A DNA stretch of 64,000 bases from the NCBI RefSeq assembly GCF_001613545.1, contig NZ_BDCO01000002.1, positions 1,364,001 through 1,428,000 of the forward strand, in the 5' to 3' direction. Of this stretch, positions 34 to 52,096 are shown piece after piece. The notes beneath the pieces were generated by a model that was given only the letters and a program-made list of their open reading frames with translations, searched no databases and was not told where the DNA came from. The DNA is from Terrimicrobium sacchariphilum (lineage in GTDB: Bacteria > Verrucomicrobiota > Verrucomicrobiia > Chthoniobacterales > Terrimicrobiaceae). Within the stretch, counting starts at the first letter, position 1. Each line of letters begins with the position of its first letter. The position numbers and the translations under genes were made by a program.

Positions 34-3000
34 GTGATGGATTCCCTTTCGCTGCGCGCCCGTAATGGCGGCACGGAGACGGACTGGCTCCGCCTCGCCC
101 GCTGGCAGCGCTTCCTCCGCGCCACCGACAGTTACCAGCAGACGCTCGCCACCGGGCTGTCGCTCTACCCGTCATCCCGCCCGCTTCGCAATGCCTTCAT
201 CGATGCCCTCGTGGCCGACGGACGCTATGACGGCGCGATCGCGCAGCTGAACCGGTTGGTCAAGACAGCGGAACCCTCCGAGATGGTCGCCCTCCAGCGG
301 CGCATCGGATACCTGGAGATCGAGCGCGGCCAACCTGATCAGGCGCTCGCGATTTTCGAGAGCATCCGGAACGATAATCCCAAGGACTGGCAGGCTCTGT
401 CGGATGTCGCCTTTGCCCAGCAGGCTGGCGGCAACTGGTTCGCCGCGCTGGAAAGCTGGCTGTTTGCGTATCGACTGGCCCCGCCCGATGCCAAGCGGTC
501 GCTCGTTCAGTCCATCCTCGGCGCCGCTTCCCGGTTGCAGCAGTTTGCCCGCGTCCTGGATTTCCTGGCCGCTGCCTGCGAGAGCGAGCGCAATTCCGAT
601 GCCCGGGCCGAGCTGTCGCGGGCGGCTGCGGCGTACTCCAGCGATCACCAGTTGACCGATGCCTGGCTGGAAATCCTCAGGGACAAGGCCGGCCGGTCCG
701 ACGATGCTTTCTGGAAACAGGCCCAGGCGGATGCGCTCCTTGCCGCCGGGAGGACCGAGGAGGCGCGCGAGGCGGGCGGCGTGTTCACTGCTTCCCTGCC
801 GCGCGACGAGGAATCGCTGAAAGCCGCCGTCGGCGAGGCGGTCCGGGCTGGGAACTGGGGCGATGCAGCCCGGCTCACGGGATTGCTGATCGCGCTGGAA
901 AAGGAACCCGATCTTTCTGCATGGCAGCAACGCGCGGAGTATCTGGAAAAGGCCGGGCTGTGGTCCCAGGCGCGGGAAGCATGGGCGGCTGTCTCCAGAC
1001 GGTTTGCGCGAGAACCTGCCGCGCTTCTGGCCGTGGCGCAGTTTCAGGAGCGCGATGGACGTCTCGAGGAGTCCGAGCGCAGTTATCGCATGGCGGGAGA
1101 TCTGGCGGGGAACCCTCCAGCCATCCTCTTCCGGCTTGGACGGCTGGCGCAGGACCGTGGGGACAGGCTTCAGGCAGCGACGGATTTGGAGAAACTGCTG
1201 GCTGTCACTCCGGCCTCCGCGGCGACAGCCCTGCTGCTACCGATCCCTCCGGCTTATGACTCCGGGGATGAAATCTCCGTCGCGTCCGCCACTCCTGTCG
1301 CCCTGGGCATTCCTCGCGACACCTGGCCACGTCCCGCGGAATCCGATGCCCGTGGTGTCCGTCTCCTGGCGATTCGCGATCTGGCCCGCATGCTGGCCGA
1401 CAGCCCGAAACGCGCGGAATGGATTGCGTCATTGACTGATCCCTCTGAGCGGGTGTGGGCGCTGTATTTCTCCGGGGACAAGGGGGCGGCGATTCGCGAG
1501 GCCTCCGCTGCAGCGGCAAAACACGATGCCTTATCCCCTCGCGGGGAGTACCTGATGATTCTGGCCCTGGATGCCGGAGCGTGGTCGGAACTTTCCTCCT
1601 ATCTCGCCCAGCCGGCCGATCATCGGGCCGCGCGATGGAAATCCTTCCAGACGGCCCTGACCTTTCTCCTGGAGAAAGGGTGGCAGCCTCCATCGAAGGA
1701 GTTAACCACCTTGATCAGCTCTGCCCCTGCTTCTGCGCGTTGGGAGATATGCCGAGCCCTGGCGTCCCAAGGGCAGGGGCGGCTGGCTTGCTGGCTCGCG
1801 GAGTCCATTCCCGCCTCATTTCCCTCGGAGCAGGCCGCCCAGGCATGGATCGATATCGGGACGTGGCGGCTGAACCTTCGCCAGCCCGATGCCGCGAGAC
1901 AGGCTTTCGATAACGCGCTGGCTCTTTCCCCGGGGGATATTTCCTATTCCCGGCCATTTTTTGCCGCCCTTAGGGCGCGCTGGATGCTCACGCCGCCGGC
2001 GGAGCGTGCCGCGGTTGAGAAAAAAATCCTTCAGCAGGCGGTCGCCACGCGCAAGCCGGGCTTCCCGGAGGCCGTCGAAGCCTTTTTTGCCGCCCTGGCG
2101 GGGAATTACGAGAAAGCGGGTCAGCTTCTGGAGGAAGTCTTTCAAGCATCCCGCGGTGCACAGGATGCATCCTGGACCGACATCGTGCAGTTGGGGGGGA
2201 GCCAGCTGGAGCGCTGGGGGATGAATCGACTCGCGCGCGAACTGTATCGCACCAGCCTCGAGAGTGACCGTGCGCTCGCTGTCCTGCGAGGTGAGGATTT
2301 CTCACATGGCGCCATGTCGATGCTCGTCCAGAATCGCCTCATCAATGACGATCACACCTCGGCGGCCTATCTGGCCGGGGAGTGGAGCGCGGGAGGCGCT
2401 CGTGTAGAGGATGTGCTGCAGTCCGTCCGCCAATTGCTGGCGGCCTCGCAGGGCGCGAGGGCGGCTTTCCTTATCGACTTCCTGGCTGCCCAGCCCGCGC
2501 TGGATGATACCTCTGTCATCACGCTCTTCACCTTCACCGGGGAAAAGCGCGCACGTGAATCTTTGCGCGGTCTTGTCCTGAAGGCACTGGAGTCTGGCTC
2601 TTCCGTTCCCCTGCGGATCGCGGCGACGCATGCGGCTCTGCGGCTGGCTATCGGCAGCCAGCAGGATGGGGCGACGGATGAGGAACTCGCCCTGATGCAG
2701 CGCATATCGGGGCCCGGCGCGATGTCGCCGGCTTTCAATCTGCAATATGCCCAGGCACTCACCCGGCTGGGGAGGCATCGCGAGGCGCTTGCCGTGCTGG
2801 AGGCGGCGACGGCCATGGCTCCCGACCCGGGTCCCTACATCATGAATCTCGCCGAGTTGCTGGCCTGGTTTGGCCGGGAGCGCGAGGCTGCCGTCATCCT
2901 GGAGAAGCAGGCATCCTCCGTCGGTCCGAATCGCACGGTCGCCGCACAGCGGCTGGCCGCGCTGGCCGACATTCTCGGCGATCAACGACGCAAGGAACTC

Positions 3001-4425
3001 GCCGAGCGGGTTCTCAAGGAGGATGGCCTTGATTCCGCGGCCCAGAGGCTGCCGGAGTCGCCGGAGGAATGGCGCGGCCGCCTGCGCGATCTCCGTTCGC
3101 GCTACAAACAGTCCCGCGAGCAGTTCAATGCCGTGTCAAACTACGTCCTCTCGCAACCCTTGCTGCCGGTCGAGGTGCGGACCGAGGAGATGGCGAGGCT
3201 TCAGGCAATCGCCACCCAGTACCCGGCCTTGATCCCGGCATACTATCTCTTCCGCAAGAATCTCGCTGCCCGCGATAAGAGGCAGGACGACTTTCGCAAG
3301 GAGCTGACCGCCGAATGGCGGCAGGGTGCCGGGCAGTATTTCGCCGGTGAAATGCTAATCCATCTGGCTTTTGAGGAGGCGCGTTTCGATCTCATGTCCG
3401 CGCTCCTGGACGAATACCTGACAGATCGAAATTTCCAGCCCACCGCCTGGAGGCTGCTCGCGCAGCGGTTGATGGAGGAAAGGCAATACGCCCTGGCCGA
3501 GCGCGTGCTGGCGGCAAGCATGCAGCGTTCTGATGGCGATGCCGCCACCGATCTCACGCTGGCCGAGGCGAGGTGGCGCCAGGGCAAGCCGGTGGCGGAC
3601 ATCCTTGCCCGCATCGATGCCATCGGCTCGATCGATCCCGCTCGCCGGCTCGACCTGGCTCGTTTCTACGCCCGGACCAATCAACCGGATCTCGCCGCCG
3701 CCCAGCTTCGCGCCATGGACGGATATTTTCCCGCCGAGGCCGGTACTGGAGGGGTATGGGCGCAGGTGGCGACGAACTGGCTCGAGCGCGGACGGATTTC
3801 AGATGCTGGCGACGTTCTTGCAATGTTGGTGGAGCGCTGGCCACAGCACGTGAGCGGTCGTTTGCTCGCCGACTATCACGAGGCGCTGGGCGCGGCCGCG
3901 CAGCCCGAGGAGATGCTCCCTTTGCTATCGTTCCAGACCCGGCTCGATTACCGGGCGGCCATCTTTGCCGATCTCGTGAGCCGGGGAGACGTGGATGCTG
4001 CCCGGGCATGGGTCATGGCGCACCCGGAGTCTCTTCGTGCCCCGGAGGTTCGTGCCGGATTGCAGAGACTGGAGGTGCTGGATTGGCCGAAAATGGCCAG
4101 GGTCTGGGGTACCGTCGCTCCCGGCAACACGCTGTGGGAGGTTCAGGCGGCTGCGGCCGCTTTCCAGGCACGGTACGCCGCCCAACTGGAGACTGAGGGA
4201 AAATCCCCGCTCTCCGCATTGGGAGAGGCTCACCGCCTGCAGCCCGGAGAGTTCAACTACTCGCGGGCATACGCCAGGGCGCTGGTGAAAAATGGCAAGC
4301 CTGCCCAGGCCATCAAGGTCCTCGAAACCACGGTGAAATCGTACGCATCGCCTGAAGACCGCCGGGCCGCCCAGACAATGTTGGATTCCCTGCGGGCTTC
4401 ACCTCGCTTGCCCGACAGCGCATAA
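34..4425 (+). CDS. Giant tetratricopeptide-repeat protein
   Basis: A 1463-residue protein made almost entirely of helical repeats of about 34 residues, rich in Ala and Leu. Typical TPR signatures occur near residues 85-125, 330-400, 615-650, 930-980 and 1400-1450. TPR arrays are protein-interaction scaffolds; no catalytic domain is visible. The first start in view is GTG at 34 (or ATG at 37), but the frame stays open to base 1 with no stop, so the true start, and any signal peptide, may lie outside the window. It is followed after 18 bp by a small secreted protein in the same direction, which suggests a shared transcript. The TPR assignment is firm; the cellular role is unknown. Confidence 0.85.
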   Translation: MMDSLSLRARNGGTETDWLRLARWQRFLRATDSYQQTLATGLSLYPSSRPLRNAFIDALVADGRYDGAIAQLNRLVKTAEPSEMVALQRRIGYLEIERGQPDQALAIFESIRNDNPKDWQALSDVAFAQQAGGNWFAALESWLFAYRLAPPDAKRSLVQSILGAASRLQQFARVLDFLAAACESERNSDARAELSRAAAAYSSDHQLTDAWLEILRDKAGRSDDAFWKQAQADALLAAGRTEEAREAGGVFTASLPRDEESLKAAVGEAVRAGNWGDAARLTGLLIALEKEPDLSAWQQRAEYLEKAGLWSQAREAWAAVSRRFAREPAALLAVAQFQERDGRLEESERSYRMAGDLAGNPPAILFRLGRLAQDRGDRLQAATDLEKLLAVTPASAATALLLPIPPAYDSGDEISVASATPVALGIPRDTWPRPAESDARGVRLLAIRDLARMLADSPKRAEWIASLTDPSERVWALYFSGDKGAAIREASAAAAKHDALSPRGEYLMILALDAGAWSELSSYLAQPADHRAARWKSFQTALTFLLEKGWQPPSKELTTLISSAPASARWEICRALASQGQGRLACWLAESIPASFPSEQAAQAWIDIGTWRLNLRQPDAARQAFDNALALSPGDISYSRPFFAALRARWMLTPPAERAAVEKKILQQAVATRKPGFPEAVEAFFAALAGNYEKAGQLLEEVFQASRGAQDASWTDIVQLGGSQLERWGMNRLARELYRTSLESDRALAVLRGEDFSHGAMSMLVQNRLINDDHTSAAYLAGEWSAGGARVEDVLQSVRQLLAASQGARAAFLIDFLAAQPALDDTSVITLFTFTGEKRARESLRGLVLKALESGSSVPLRIAATHAALRLAIGSQQDGATDEELALMQRISGPGAMSPAFNLQYAQALTRLGRHREALAVLEAATAMAPDPGPYIMNLAELLAWFGREREAAVILEKQASSVGPNRTVAAQRLAALADILGDQRRKELAERVLKEDGLDSAAQRLPESPEEWRGRLRDLRSRYKQSREQFNAVSNYVLSQPLLPVEVRTEEMARLQAIATQYPALIPAYYLFRKNLAARDKRQDDFRKELTAEWRQGAGQYFAGEMLIHLAFEEARFDLMSALLDEYLTDRNFQPTAWRLLAQRLMEERQYALAERVLAASMQRSDGDAATDLTLAEARWRQGKPVADILARIDAIGSIDPARRLDLARFYARTNQPDLAAAQLRAMDGYFPAEAGTGGVWAQVATNWLERGRISDAGDVLAMLVERWPQHVSGRLLADYHEALGAAAQPEEMLPLLSFQTRLDYRAAIFADLVSRGDVDAARAWVMAHPESLRAPEVRAGLQRLEVLDWPKMARVWGTVAPGNTLWEVQAAAAAFQARYAAQLETEGKSPLSALGEAHRLQPGEFNYSRAYARALVKNGKPAQAIKVLETTVKSYASPEDRRAAQTMLDSLRASPRLPDSA

Positions 4426-49648: not shown

Positions 49649-50491
49649 TCAGGCCACCTCGATGACGATCGCTGTCGTATTGTCTCGTCCCGAGCGCTCC
49701 ACTGCGGTCGTGACGAGACGCTGGGCCGGGTCGTGTACGCGTTCCCCCGGCTCGGGGTCTTTCAGGAGGCGGCGGATTTCGTTGTCAAACAACCCGTCCA
49801 CCACGCCATCGCTGCACAGGACAAAAACGTCGCCCTGCTGGTACGCCACCGCGCCGACCTGGGGATCGACGAATTGATGGCCCGCCCCGAGCGCCTTCTG
49901 CAGGGACGTGCGGCCGGGATGCTGCTTTGCCTCCCACTCGCTGATTTTCCCCTGGCGGAAAAGCCATCCGACATAGGTGTCGTCATGGGAGAGCTGCTTG
50001 ATCCCATCCTCGCTGGCCGGGAGGTAGTAAAGCCGGCTGTCGCCGATATGGCCAAAATACATCCATCCCGGCGTGAACCACGTCAGCGTGAGGGTGGCCC
50101 CCATCCCGGCGCAATCCGGGTCGCCCCATGAGAGATAGGAAATCGCCTTGTGGATCTCGTGGTACAGCTCGGTGAAAATATCGGCAAACCCGGCAGCCAG
50201 ACCCTGAGCCGACCGCTTGAAGGCCGCCGGCATGAAGCGTGTCACCTTGTCCACCGTGATGCGGCTGGCAAACTCGCCTGCTGCCGCACCCCCCATGCCA
50301 TCGCTCACGGCAAACACATAGTCGCCGTGGTCGGTCGATCCGTCGCCCTCGCGTCCCAGGTATCTCAGCTCCTGGGCATCGAATTGCAGGCCGAGAAAGG
50401 TATCCTCATTGTTCGACCGGACGCGGCCCGTATTGCTGCGACCGTGCCAGATCAGGCGTTGGTTCGGTATGACTTGGTTGATTGGCTCCAT
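49649..50491 (-). CDS. PP2C-type Ser/Thr protein phosphatase
   Basis: A 280-residue PPM/PP2C phosphatase. The metal-binding aspartates sit in the family motifs: RSNNEDTFL, VSDGMGGAAAGE, GDSRLYYL, LCSDGVVDGLFDN and RDNTTAIVIEVA at the C-terminus. It removes phosphate from Ser/Thr residues of target proteins. It starts at ATG 50491 (a TTG 11 codons earlier is possible) and overlaps the miniature kinase gene by 86 bp in another frame, which implies translational coupling and joint function. Confidence 0.95.
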   Translation of the reverse strand: MEPINQVIPNQRLIWHGRSNTGRVRSNNEDTFLGLQFDAQELRYLGREGDGSTDHGDYVFAVSDGMGGAAAGEFASRITVDKVTRFMPAAFKRSAQGLAAGFADIFTELYHEIHKAISYLSWGDPDCAGMGATLTLTWFTPGWMYFGHIGDSRLYYLPASEDGIKQLSHDDTYVGWLFRQGKISEWEAKQHPGRTSLQKALGAGHQFVDPQVGAVAYQQGDVFVLCSDGVVDGLFDNEIRRLLKDPEPGERVHDPAQRLVTTAVERSGRDNTTAIVIEVA

Positions 50492-50879
50492 CGGCCTCTT
50501 CAAACCCCGGCAAAATGGTCGCAAACTCGAAATCGATCAAGCAGAAGCGCCCATCCGACTGCCGGTAGGTAACGTTGCGTGTCTCGGCGTCGTCGTGCCG
50601 CACGCCATATTTCTCCAATTCCGCAAAAAGCTCCAACCGGCGGTCGTCGTCCAGGTGGTCGACGCGCTGACCGCAGCTCGATGTCACGATTTTCAACTGC
50701 TCCGGGTCAGATTCCAGCAGGCGGGGCACAAAGGGACACTGCATCTTCTCCAAAAAGCGCAGCACCTTGACCTCGGTATCGAAGCGTTCCTGGGCGTTCG
50801 GCCCGCGGAAGGTCTTGTGGACGCGTCCATCGTAACCGATACGCACCGTGGCGCGGAGGGTGTCTTTGACCTGGTGCAT
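50406..50879 (-). CDS. Miniature kinase-like protein coupled to PP2C
   Basis: A 157-residue protein with the residues of a reduced protein kinase fold: a putative ATP Lys in RVHKTF (near 23) with Glu in TEVKVLRFLE, the catalytic loop HDDAETRN (HxDxxxxN), and LIDFEF where DFG is expected, so the metal Asp is kept but Gly is Glu. It is shorter than standard kinases (250 or more residues) and resembles the small RIO/Bud32-like or phage-type kinases. The 3' end overlaps the PP2C gene by 86 bp, a kinase-phosphatase arrangement. Activity is plausible but unproven. Confidence 0.85.
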   Translation of the reverse strand: MHQVKDTLRATVRIGYDGRVHKTFRGPNAQERFDTEVKVLRFLEKMQCPFVPRLLESDPEQLKIVTSSCGQRVDHLDDDRRLELFAELEKYGVRHDDAETRNVTYRQSDGRFCLIDFEFATILPGFEEADGANQPSHTEPTPDLARSQQYGPRPVEQ

Positions 50880-50962
50880 TCGGCTATTATCGTCGCTGCT
50901 CGTCGCCTTTGCTGCAAGTTCTCACCCGGGATTTTCGGATCGTCTCCGGATCTTCTTGAGGG

Positions 50963-50979
50963 TTGGCATTGTTCCTGCT
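50963..50979 (+). promoter_or_regulatory. Candidate sigma-54 promoter of glnA
   Basis: TTGGCATTGTTCCTGCT matches the -24/-12 consensus, with the invariant GG (50965-50966) and GC (50977-50978) separated by exactly ten bases. It would start transcription near 50990, giving a leader of about 87 bases before the glnA ATG. Confidence 0.6.
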
Positions 50980-51076
50980 CTTCAATAGGTGCGCCGTACG
51001 GATAAAGGGTAAAAAATAACACTTATGCGGTCCCCTCCGGCGCGGTCCGCGCAAAACAAGACACTCGAAGAATAAT

Positions 51077-52096
51077 ATGGCGAAGTACAAACTGGAATAC
51101 ATCTGGCTCGATGGTTACGAGCCGGTGGCCAATCTCCGTGGCAAAACCCAGATCAAGGAATTTGACTCTTTCCCGACTCTTGAGGAGCTCCCGCTCTGGG
51201 GCTTCGACGGCAGCTCGACGAAGCAGGCCGAGGGTCACAGCTCGGATTGCGTGCTGAAGCCCGTTGCAGTTTTCCCCGACGCCACCAAGACCAATGGCGT
51301 CCTCGTCATGTGCGAAGTGCTCCTTCCGGACGGCACCCCGCACCCGACCAACGCTCGCGCCACCATCGTGGACGACCCGGATACCTGGTTCGGCTTCGAG
51401 CAGGAGTATTTCCTTTATCAGGACGGCCGCCCGCTCGGCTTCCCGCGTGAGGGTTATCCCGAGCCGCAGGGCAAGTACTACACCGGCGTCGGCTACAGCG
51501 CCGTGGGCGACATCGCCCGTGAAATCGTCGACACTCACCTCGACCTCTGTCTCGAGGCCGGCATCAACCACGAAGGCATCAACGCCGAAGTGGCCAAGGG
51601 CCAGTGGGAGTTCCAGGTTTTCGGCAAGGGCTCCAAGACCGCTGCTGACCAGGTGTGGATGGCTCGTTACCTCCTCCTCCGTCTTTGCGAAAAGTACGGT
51701 GTGGACGTGAACTTCCATTGCAAGCCGCTCGGCAAGGATCTCGACTGGAACGGCTCCGGCATGCACTCCAACTTCTCGACCAAGTACATGCGTGAAGTCG
51801 GTGGCAAGGAGTACTTCGAGGCCCTCATGGCTGCCTTCGACAAGTACAAGAACGAGCACATCGCCGTTTACGGCCCGGACAACCACCTCCGTCTCACTGG
51901 TCTCCACGAGACCCAGTCGATCGACAAGTTCAACTACGGTGTGGCCAACCGCGGTGCTTCCATCCGCGTCCCGCACAGCTTCGTCAACAACGGCTACAAG
52001 GGCTACCTCGAAGACCGTCGTCCGAACTCCGCTGGCGATCCGTACAAGATCGCGAGCCGTATTCTCCAGACGATTGCCACGGTCCCGACCCCGTAA
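51077..52096 (+). CDS. glnA: Glutamine synthetase, eukaryotic-type (GSII)
   Basis: A 339-residue enzyme that makes glutamine from glutamate, ammonia and ATP. It belongs to the GSII class, shorter than GSI (about 470): WGFDGSST (41-48), WFGFEQEYFL, GQWEFQ, NGSGMHSNFSTK, and ANRGASIRVP. GSII has no adenylylation loop, so control is expected at expression level. A sigma-54-like promoter lies about 100 bp upstream, and a strong terminator follows the gene. It is read divergently from the kinase gene. Confidence 0.97.
   Translation: MAKYKLEYIWLDGYEPVANLRGKTQIKEFDSFPTLEELPLWGFDGSSTKQAEGHSSDCVLKPVAVFPDATKTNGVLVMCEVLLPDGTPHPTNARATIVDDPDTWFGFEQEYFLYQDGRPLGFPREGYPEPQGKYYTGVGYSAVGDIAREIVDTHLDLCLEAGINHEGINAEVAKGQWEFQVFGKGSKTAADQVWMARYLLLRLCEKYGVDVNFHCKPLGKDLDWNGSGMHSNFSTKYMREVGGKEYFEALMAAFDKYKNEHIAVYGPDNHLRLTGLHETQSIDKFNYGVANRGASIRVPHSFVNNGYKGYLEDRRPNSAGDPYKIASRILQTIATVPTP

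Follow-up and report, generated by a model that had tools for sequence, protein, structure and literature searches.

Kinase–PP2C pairs are well known, bacterial GSI is controlled by adenylylation with GlnE as the adenylylating protein, and the activity of OspG-type miniature kinases is partner-dependent. Among kinases of solved structure, the archaeal RNA kinase ArkI (Ark1; PDB 8yv4 and 8yv5) resembles the protein described here in having a small kinase fold with DFE. An excerpt of PMC9095486 gives HGQ as the catalytic loop of TkArkI and reports that mutating its C-terminal YKR helix abolishes activity; it also describes extra C-terminal helices, a tRNA substrate and the eraser KptA. The excerpted table of a review (PMC6213207) names the substrates of bacterial Ser/Thr kinases, GlnA (glutamine synthetase) being one of them. 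For type II glutamine synthetase (GSII), a portion of PMC5127829 describes control in Sinorhizobium as mainly transcriptional, with glnII activated by NtrC together with RpoN. A search of the PMC literature, a scope with most subscription journals and bioRxiv outside it, gave no description, among the matches listed, of a miniature kinase and PP2C pair accompanying GSII, and the pair reported here, which is distributed with GSII through verrucomicrobial genomes, is probably an undescribed phosphorylation switch on nitrogen assimilation. If this is true, ammonium assimilation would be switched by a new means, a kinase/PP2C pair that accompanies GSII throughout a phylum, and the miniature kinase, if active, would test the minimum size of a working protein kinase. 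The pair is a concrete, genetically defined candidate for phosphorylation-based nitrogen control.

The locus lies within a 64,000-nucleotide stretch of the Terrimicrobium sacchariphilum genome, the whole of which is referred to as the window, where a miniature kinase gene (mini-kinase) and a PP2C gene diverge from glnA (Table 1). It is proposed, with a probability of roughly 0.55, that the mini-kinase and PP2C form a dedicated reversible-phosphorylation switch that acts on GSII, or on the proteins immediately regulating it, and thereby on nitrogen assimilation. The proposal draws on the complete catalytic residues of the kinase, the near-constant presence of PP2C, the fusion of the two proteins and a distribution tied to GSII and not to PII.

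Table 1. Features of the mini-kinase locus, in coordinates of the window
Feature	Position	Strand	Description
PP2C phosphatase gene	49649..50491	-	280 aa, Stp1/PphA type; alternative TTG start at 50524
Overlap of both frames, 86 bp	50406..50491	-	Covers part of the non-conserved kinase tail
Mini-kinase gene	50406..50879	-	157 aa; conserved core is residues 1-124
DFE replacing DFG	50526..50534	-	Residues 116-118; invariant in 81/81
HDDAETRN catalytic loop	50574..50597	-	Residues 95-102; H95, D97 and N102 invariant in 81/81
Intergenic region shared by GSII and kinase, 197 bp	50880..51076	.	
Sigma54-like -24/-12 site TTGGCATTGTTCCTGCT	50963..50979	+	Directed toward glnA
glnA, type II glutamine synthetase (GSII)	51077..52096	+	339 aa; proposed target

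A preliminary description of the window had reported a 157-residue protein with HDDAETRN and DFE, and the corresponding open reading frame was recovered; the overlap it had noted with the PP2C gene, in another frame, is confirmed at its full length when PP2C starts at the ATG at 50491. A search of 197 related genomes returned mini-kinase matches in 83, of which 81 are strong (E <= 2.9e-40, 50–100% identity) and two are weak (G173 and G181, E 0.005–0.008), the weak matches being excluded from every later count. With 81 of the relatives giving strong matches, a chance ORF or shadow frame is ruled out. The window's own genome gives a single match, and one relative (G057) carries an extra weak match besides its first one. 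A contig scan confirmed 235 stretches encoding the mini-kinase; the best 80 of these (L031–L110) were used for all locus counts and were aligned with the window protein to give 81 sequences, some of which are near-copies.

Residues invariant throughout this alignment include K5, T7, R9, K22 and E36, together with GVRH at 92–95, D97, R101, N102 and IDFEF at 115–119. Conservation ends near residue 124, eight residues past D116, and the unfused homologues are 125–140 aa long in 66 of 74 cases (range 124–157). The last 33 residues of the window kinase (125–157) form a tail that is not conserved, is modeled with low confidence and contains no predicted helix. Because the long overlap with PP2C arises from this tail, it is a local oddity. 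At the 73 loci where the genes are unfused and PP2C is visible, and where spacing was measured to the residue aligned with Met1 of the window protein and is therefore approximate, 47 show an overlap of 1–23 bp, five an overlap of at least 60 bp (two of these being near-copies of the window), 19 a gap of 0–41 bp and two a larger gap. Mean identity to the window is higher for the kinase core (0.74, n = 78) than for PP2C (0.57, n = 73).

Structure prediction with AlphaFold2 (56 sequences) gives the mini-kinase a kinase fold, so that neither outcome named in the preliminary description as a refutation, a predicted fold lacking the kinase core or a pair missing from relatives, was observed. The model has a mean pLDDT of 88 and a pTM of 0.77, with residues 11–120 at 94–98 by block, and its elements follow the order kinase N-lobe, one helix, catalytic loop and DFx hairpin. 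The predicted fold ends just past DFE and has no counterpart of the activation segment or the later C-lobe helices. None of the 81 aligned sequences departs from the catalytic residues K22, E36, H95, D97, N102 and D116; with the beta3 Lys, alphaC Glu, HxD, Asn and DFx Asp all present, the protein belongs to the protein-kinase-like fold. It falls outside the canonical (Hanks/ePK) Ser/Thr kinases. The usual position of the glycine-rich loop is taken by a short beta1–beta2 turn in KDTxRA that is not glycine-rich, and PF00069 is absent from the Pfam matches of the window protein at E <= 1. The nearest Pfam profile is APH (PF01636), which the window protein matches at 22.9 bits against a gathering cut-off of 23.2 and which, at E <= 0.1, detects every one of the 56 members of the alignment, with a best E of 1.9e-9.

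A PDB sequence search with the single protein gave no matches, and a search with the mini-kinase profile gave non-significant matches only, among these 8yv4 at E 0.39. Foldseek against the PDB ranks Ark1 first (E 3e-7, TM 0.58 by query), followed by Kae1–Bud32, Rio2 and PRPK. VIA-align superposes the 50 best solved kinases with Z of 10–13 over residues 1–126 or slightly more (CDKL1 13.4, Rio2 12.6, PRPK 12.5, Ark1 11.9, where differences within 1 are ties). The atypical Bud32/PRPK and RIO kinases share a compact core with the mini-kinase, and the match to the Bud32 profile TIGR03724 is weak (21.6 bits, below the cut-off of 125). Unlike the mini-kinase, the solved single-domain chains matched by Foldseek and VIA-align have 220–290 residues or more. 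An OspG-type miniature kinase (PDB 4q5h, Z 10.4) likewise has a kinase fold, in a 169-residue chain bound to a partner, but it is a pathogen effector with an unrelated role and is longer than the conserved core of the mini-kinase.

The overlapping gene is a PP2C phosphatase, as first described, on the evidence of profile, metal-site motifs and structural matches. Its score of 59.6 bits with PF13672 (cut-off 24) assigns it to the PP2C/PPM family, and the metal-site motifs shared with the Stp1, PstP and PphA phosphatases are largely intact, with RxxNED in 76, GD[ST]R in 76, DGMGG in 72, G[KR]DNxT in 69 and DG[VILT][TVY][DE] in 62 of 76 near-complete sequences. It differs from the Stp1 type in its partner, the mini-kinase, and in its score with the Stp1/IreP equivalog NF033484 (173.5 bits, below the 230-bit cut-off). 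A structural search run with the fused kinase–PP2C model found S. agalactiae Stp, PstP, S. aureus Stp1 and tPphA as the closest solved structures.

The pair is conserved in relatives, and the suggestion of the preliminary description that it could be a compact module is strengthened by this pairing and by its fusion in several lineages. PP2C lies directly downstream on the same strand at 79 of the 80 kinase loci, and at the remaining locus (L103) the contig ends. Every kinase-bearing relative (81 in total) also has PP2C, as does one further genome (G105, a contig-edge fragment), and the two genes share a contig in 80 of the 81, the exception being G129. Chthoniobacter flavus Ellin428 (L051) is among the strains that carry the module. 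The two proteins are fused in frame at six of the 80 loci (L064, L086, L100, L102, L104 and L108), they occupy one open frame in 13 f13/g27 genomes, and a relative recovered from IMG/VR (L192) has a fused protein of 447 aa. In three f17/g56 genomes the kinase frame extends to 432–435 aa; PP2C was checked in one of these, G531. The fused L086 model has a pLDDT of 92 and a pTM of 0.75, scores that carry no interface confidence.

In the preliminary description glnA was placed divergent from the pair and no target gene was seen adjacent to it. The divergence stands, and the second part is not supported: the divergent glnA encodes GSII, a eukaryote-like enzyme, and the presence of GSII tracks that of the pair; among the four nitrogen genes tested (GSII, PII, GlnD and GlnE) it alone does so, and it does so also at non-adjacent loci. 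Kinase and GSII occur together in 78 of the 197 relatives and are both absent from 114, leaving three with the kinase only (G022, G023 and G153, completeness 72–86%) and two with GSII only (G012, 99% complete, and G024, 64%). In a phylum-wide sample of 194 genomes, drawn evenly and sharing few genomes with the set of relatives, the kinase is present in 31 and GSII in 37, and all 31 kinase genomes have GSII. The six other GSII genomes, of families f30 and f37 ('same phylum', not 'same class'), have a distant GSII with 59–62% identity. All of these co-occurrence figures are raw counts that ignore shared ancestry.

PII is present in 192 of the 197 relatives and GlnD in 187 at E <= 1e-10 (169 over the family cut-off), both irrespective of the kinase, and this near-universal distribution rules out either as the tracked partner. 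The same distribution argues against the unlikely alternative that the pair regulates another protein of the nitrogen network (PII, AmtB or an NtrC-type activator), as PphA does, with GSII a mere neighbor in the regulon. That alternative gains from the occurrence of glnB (PII) and amtB downstream of PP2C at nine and seven of the 80 loci and from the place of tPphA, the cyanobacterial PII phosphatase, among the closest solved PP2C relatives; an excerpt of a 2015 review (PMC4285133) also describes the cyanobacterial PII kinase as unidentified at that date. The kinase nevertheless tracks GSII, whereas PII and GlnD are found with or without it.

A rather improbable explanation for the co-occurrence is that it mostly reflects linkage and the joint inheritance or transfer of neighbors, with no direct functional tie to GSII. 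GSII is visible at 46 of the 80 kinase loci, divergent at 45 and upstream co-directional at one (L064), and in the phylum-wide sample the two genes are divergent neighbors at 124–314 bp in 27 of 31 genomes, an adjacency that linkage would account for. The association also holds, however, where adjacency is lacking: the genes lie on different contigs in the other four of the 31, and a genome-wide search for 17 of the 34 loci without a nearby GSII located one elsewhere in 15 of 17 (in G207 as two contig-end fragments alone). Joint inheritance is further opposed by families f4, f5, f6, f7 and f13, each of which holds both-positive and both-negative genomes, with kinase and GSII in agreement in 83 of 84. 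In the GSII tree, the sequences from L064 and from the planctomycete genomes with the kinase group together (100/99) inside the larger clade of kinase-bearing GSIIs, a topology consistent with joint transfer of GSII and the kinase. The kinase-negative GSII of G319 also falls inside the larger kinase-bearing clade.

That GSII stands alone in many other lineages likewise speaks for linkage. In a sample of 199 genomes of Planctomycetota, to which G197 (the source of L100) belongs, 15 carry GSII and only the seed G197 carries the kinase, so that 14 of the 15 GSII-bearing genomes are without it. GSII is also found on 119 plasmid records, mostly of Sinorhizobium/Rhizobium, with best matches 81–82% identical; a kinase search of the same collection, which holds plasmids only, gave just five weak Streptomyces/Streptantibioticus matches, and two GSII plasmid neighborhoods inspected contain neither kinase nor PP2C. 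GSII therefore does not require the pair. An extract of PMC2978018 places the alpha-proteobacterial GSII within Verrucomicrobia, and, to the extent of that extract, GSII can thus move without the kinase–PP2C pair. In one kinase-negative genome of the planctomycete sample (G319; L158, 113–2934), GSI and verrucomicrobial-type GSII genes lie side by side, the GSII being 78–79% identical.

GlnE, by which a dedicated reversible covalent control of GSI is exerted, offers an analogy for a switch on GSII. The proposed switch differs in using phosphorylation and unrelated proteins, and GlnE, present in 77 of the 197 relatives, co-occurs with the kinase in only three of 81 (G035, G092 and G093), while 42 of the 197 have neither. 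A single family (f8) supplies most of the genomes with GlnE, so that few independent events underlie this contrast.

The intergenic region between glnA and the kinase contains a promoter-like site. Across 45 such regions (the window and 44 loci, with L110 and its 1383-bp gap excluded), sigma54-like sites directed toward GSII number 35 with <=2 mismatches and 44 with <=3, against 0 and 4 toward the kinase and 0.55 and 3.0 in shuffled sequences, a descriptive count since the sequence scored merges the sigma54 consensus with the site of the window itself, and since L031 and L032 are nearly identical to the window. The site fits a nitrogen-regulated GSII, by analogy with Sinorhizobium.

For the proposed switch on GSII, the mini-kinase would phosphorylate either GSII or a protein that acts on GSII directly, and the co-encoded PP2C would remove that phosphate. 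Since the kinase is without the lobe that normally holds peptide substrates, recognition supplied by a partner is probable, and this partner may be the GSII oligomer or PP2C, which in some lineages is part of one protein with the kinase. The sigma54-type promoter would set the amount of GSII and the kinase–PP2C pair its activity, in lineages mostly without GlnE; catalysis, the direct substrate, the direction of the effect on GSII and the signal sensed belong to the inferred part of this model. At L064, GSII and the fused kinase–PP2C follow one another in the same direction with 98 bp between them and could therefore form one operon. A bolder version, a further mode of covalent control of a bacterial glutamine synthetase in which GSII is phosphorylated by a kinase that has lost almost all of the fold past its DFx motif, uses its phosphatase or substrate as the missing lobe, replaces GlnE adenylylation in much of Verrucomicrobiota and ranks among the smallest active protein kinases, is possible but doubtful.

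It is quite improbable that the protein is instead an RNA or small-molecule kinase of the ArkI/Bud32/APH neighborhood whose pairing with PP2C is secondary. Ark1 is the best Foldseek match in the PDB, TkArkI likewise has DFE, and APH is the best Pfam family, but of the ArkI (AQ578) features the mini-kinase has only DFE (81 of 81). HxD..N is invariant where TkArkI has HGQ, the conserved chain stops after DFE and before any YKR-type helix, and, on the excerpted account of TkArkI, the absence of both HGQ and that helix makes an ArkI-like RNA kinase less likely. A protein phosphatase, moreover, accompanies the kinase at 79 of 80 loci. One divergent homologue is more favorable to such an activity: in G585 (L173, 1288–3077) a protein of 131 aa with 51% identity is encoded directly after an MgtE-type Mg transporter gene, whose end it overlaps by four bases, with no PP2C within 1.3 kb downstream. 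From this context the mini-kinase can serve another setting; the GSII of G585 lies on a different contig, and the genome is counted among the 31 with kinase and GSII.

A defence system is disfavored by weak PADLOC matches (the kinase reaches E 0.005 at best and PP2C 6e-5) and a metabolic context, and a tblastn search of 50,697 phage records with the kinase found nothing at E <= 1. PHROG 3297 'kinase' matches the mini-kinase at E 5e-9, so phages have distant small kinases, and a viral fold search returned mostly giant-virus and phage kinases, which added nothing on function.

Candidate phosphosites were sought in GSII. T96, T235, Y246, Y307 and Y310 seemed discriminating against 18 kinase-negative GSIIs and were dropped because two rhizobial GSIIs keep all five residues; with these two included, no Ser, Thr or Tyr cleanly separates the enzymes with and without the kinase. 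Separately, residues 276–283 (window 51902–51925), beside the conserved HET motif, hardly vary among the GSIIs examined from kinase-bearing genomes, and the two rhizobial enzymes have a different segment there, with Pro at the position of S281. S281 is not proposed as a phosphosite, since Ser also occupies this position in 11 of 18 kinase-negative enzymes, that of G319 among them.

The IMG/VR scan for the mini-kinase yielded one relative, L192, in which GSII is followed by the fused kinase–PP2C gene in the same direction with about 600 bp between them. The module (1302–4263) lies on a 52-kb contig near ribonucleotide reductase genes, and this contig may be a misfiled bacterial sequence or a phage carrying the module.
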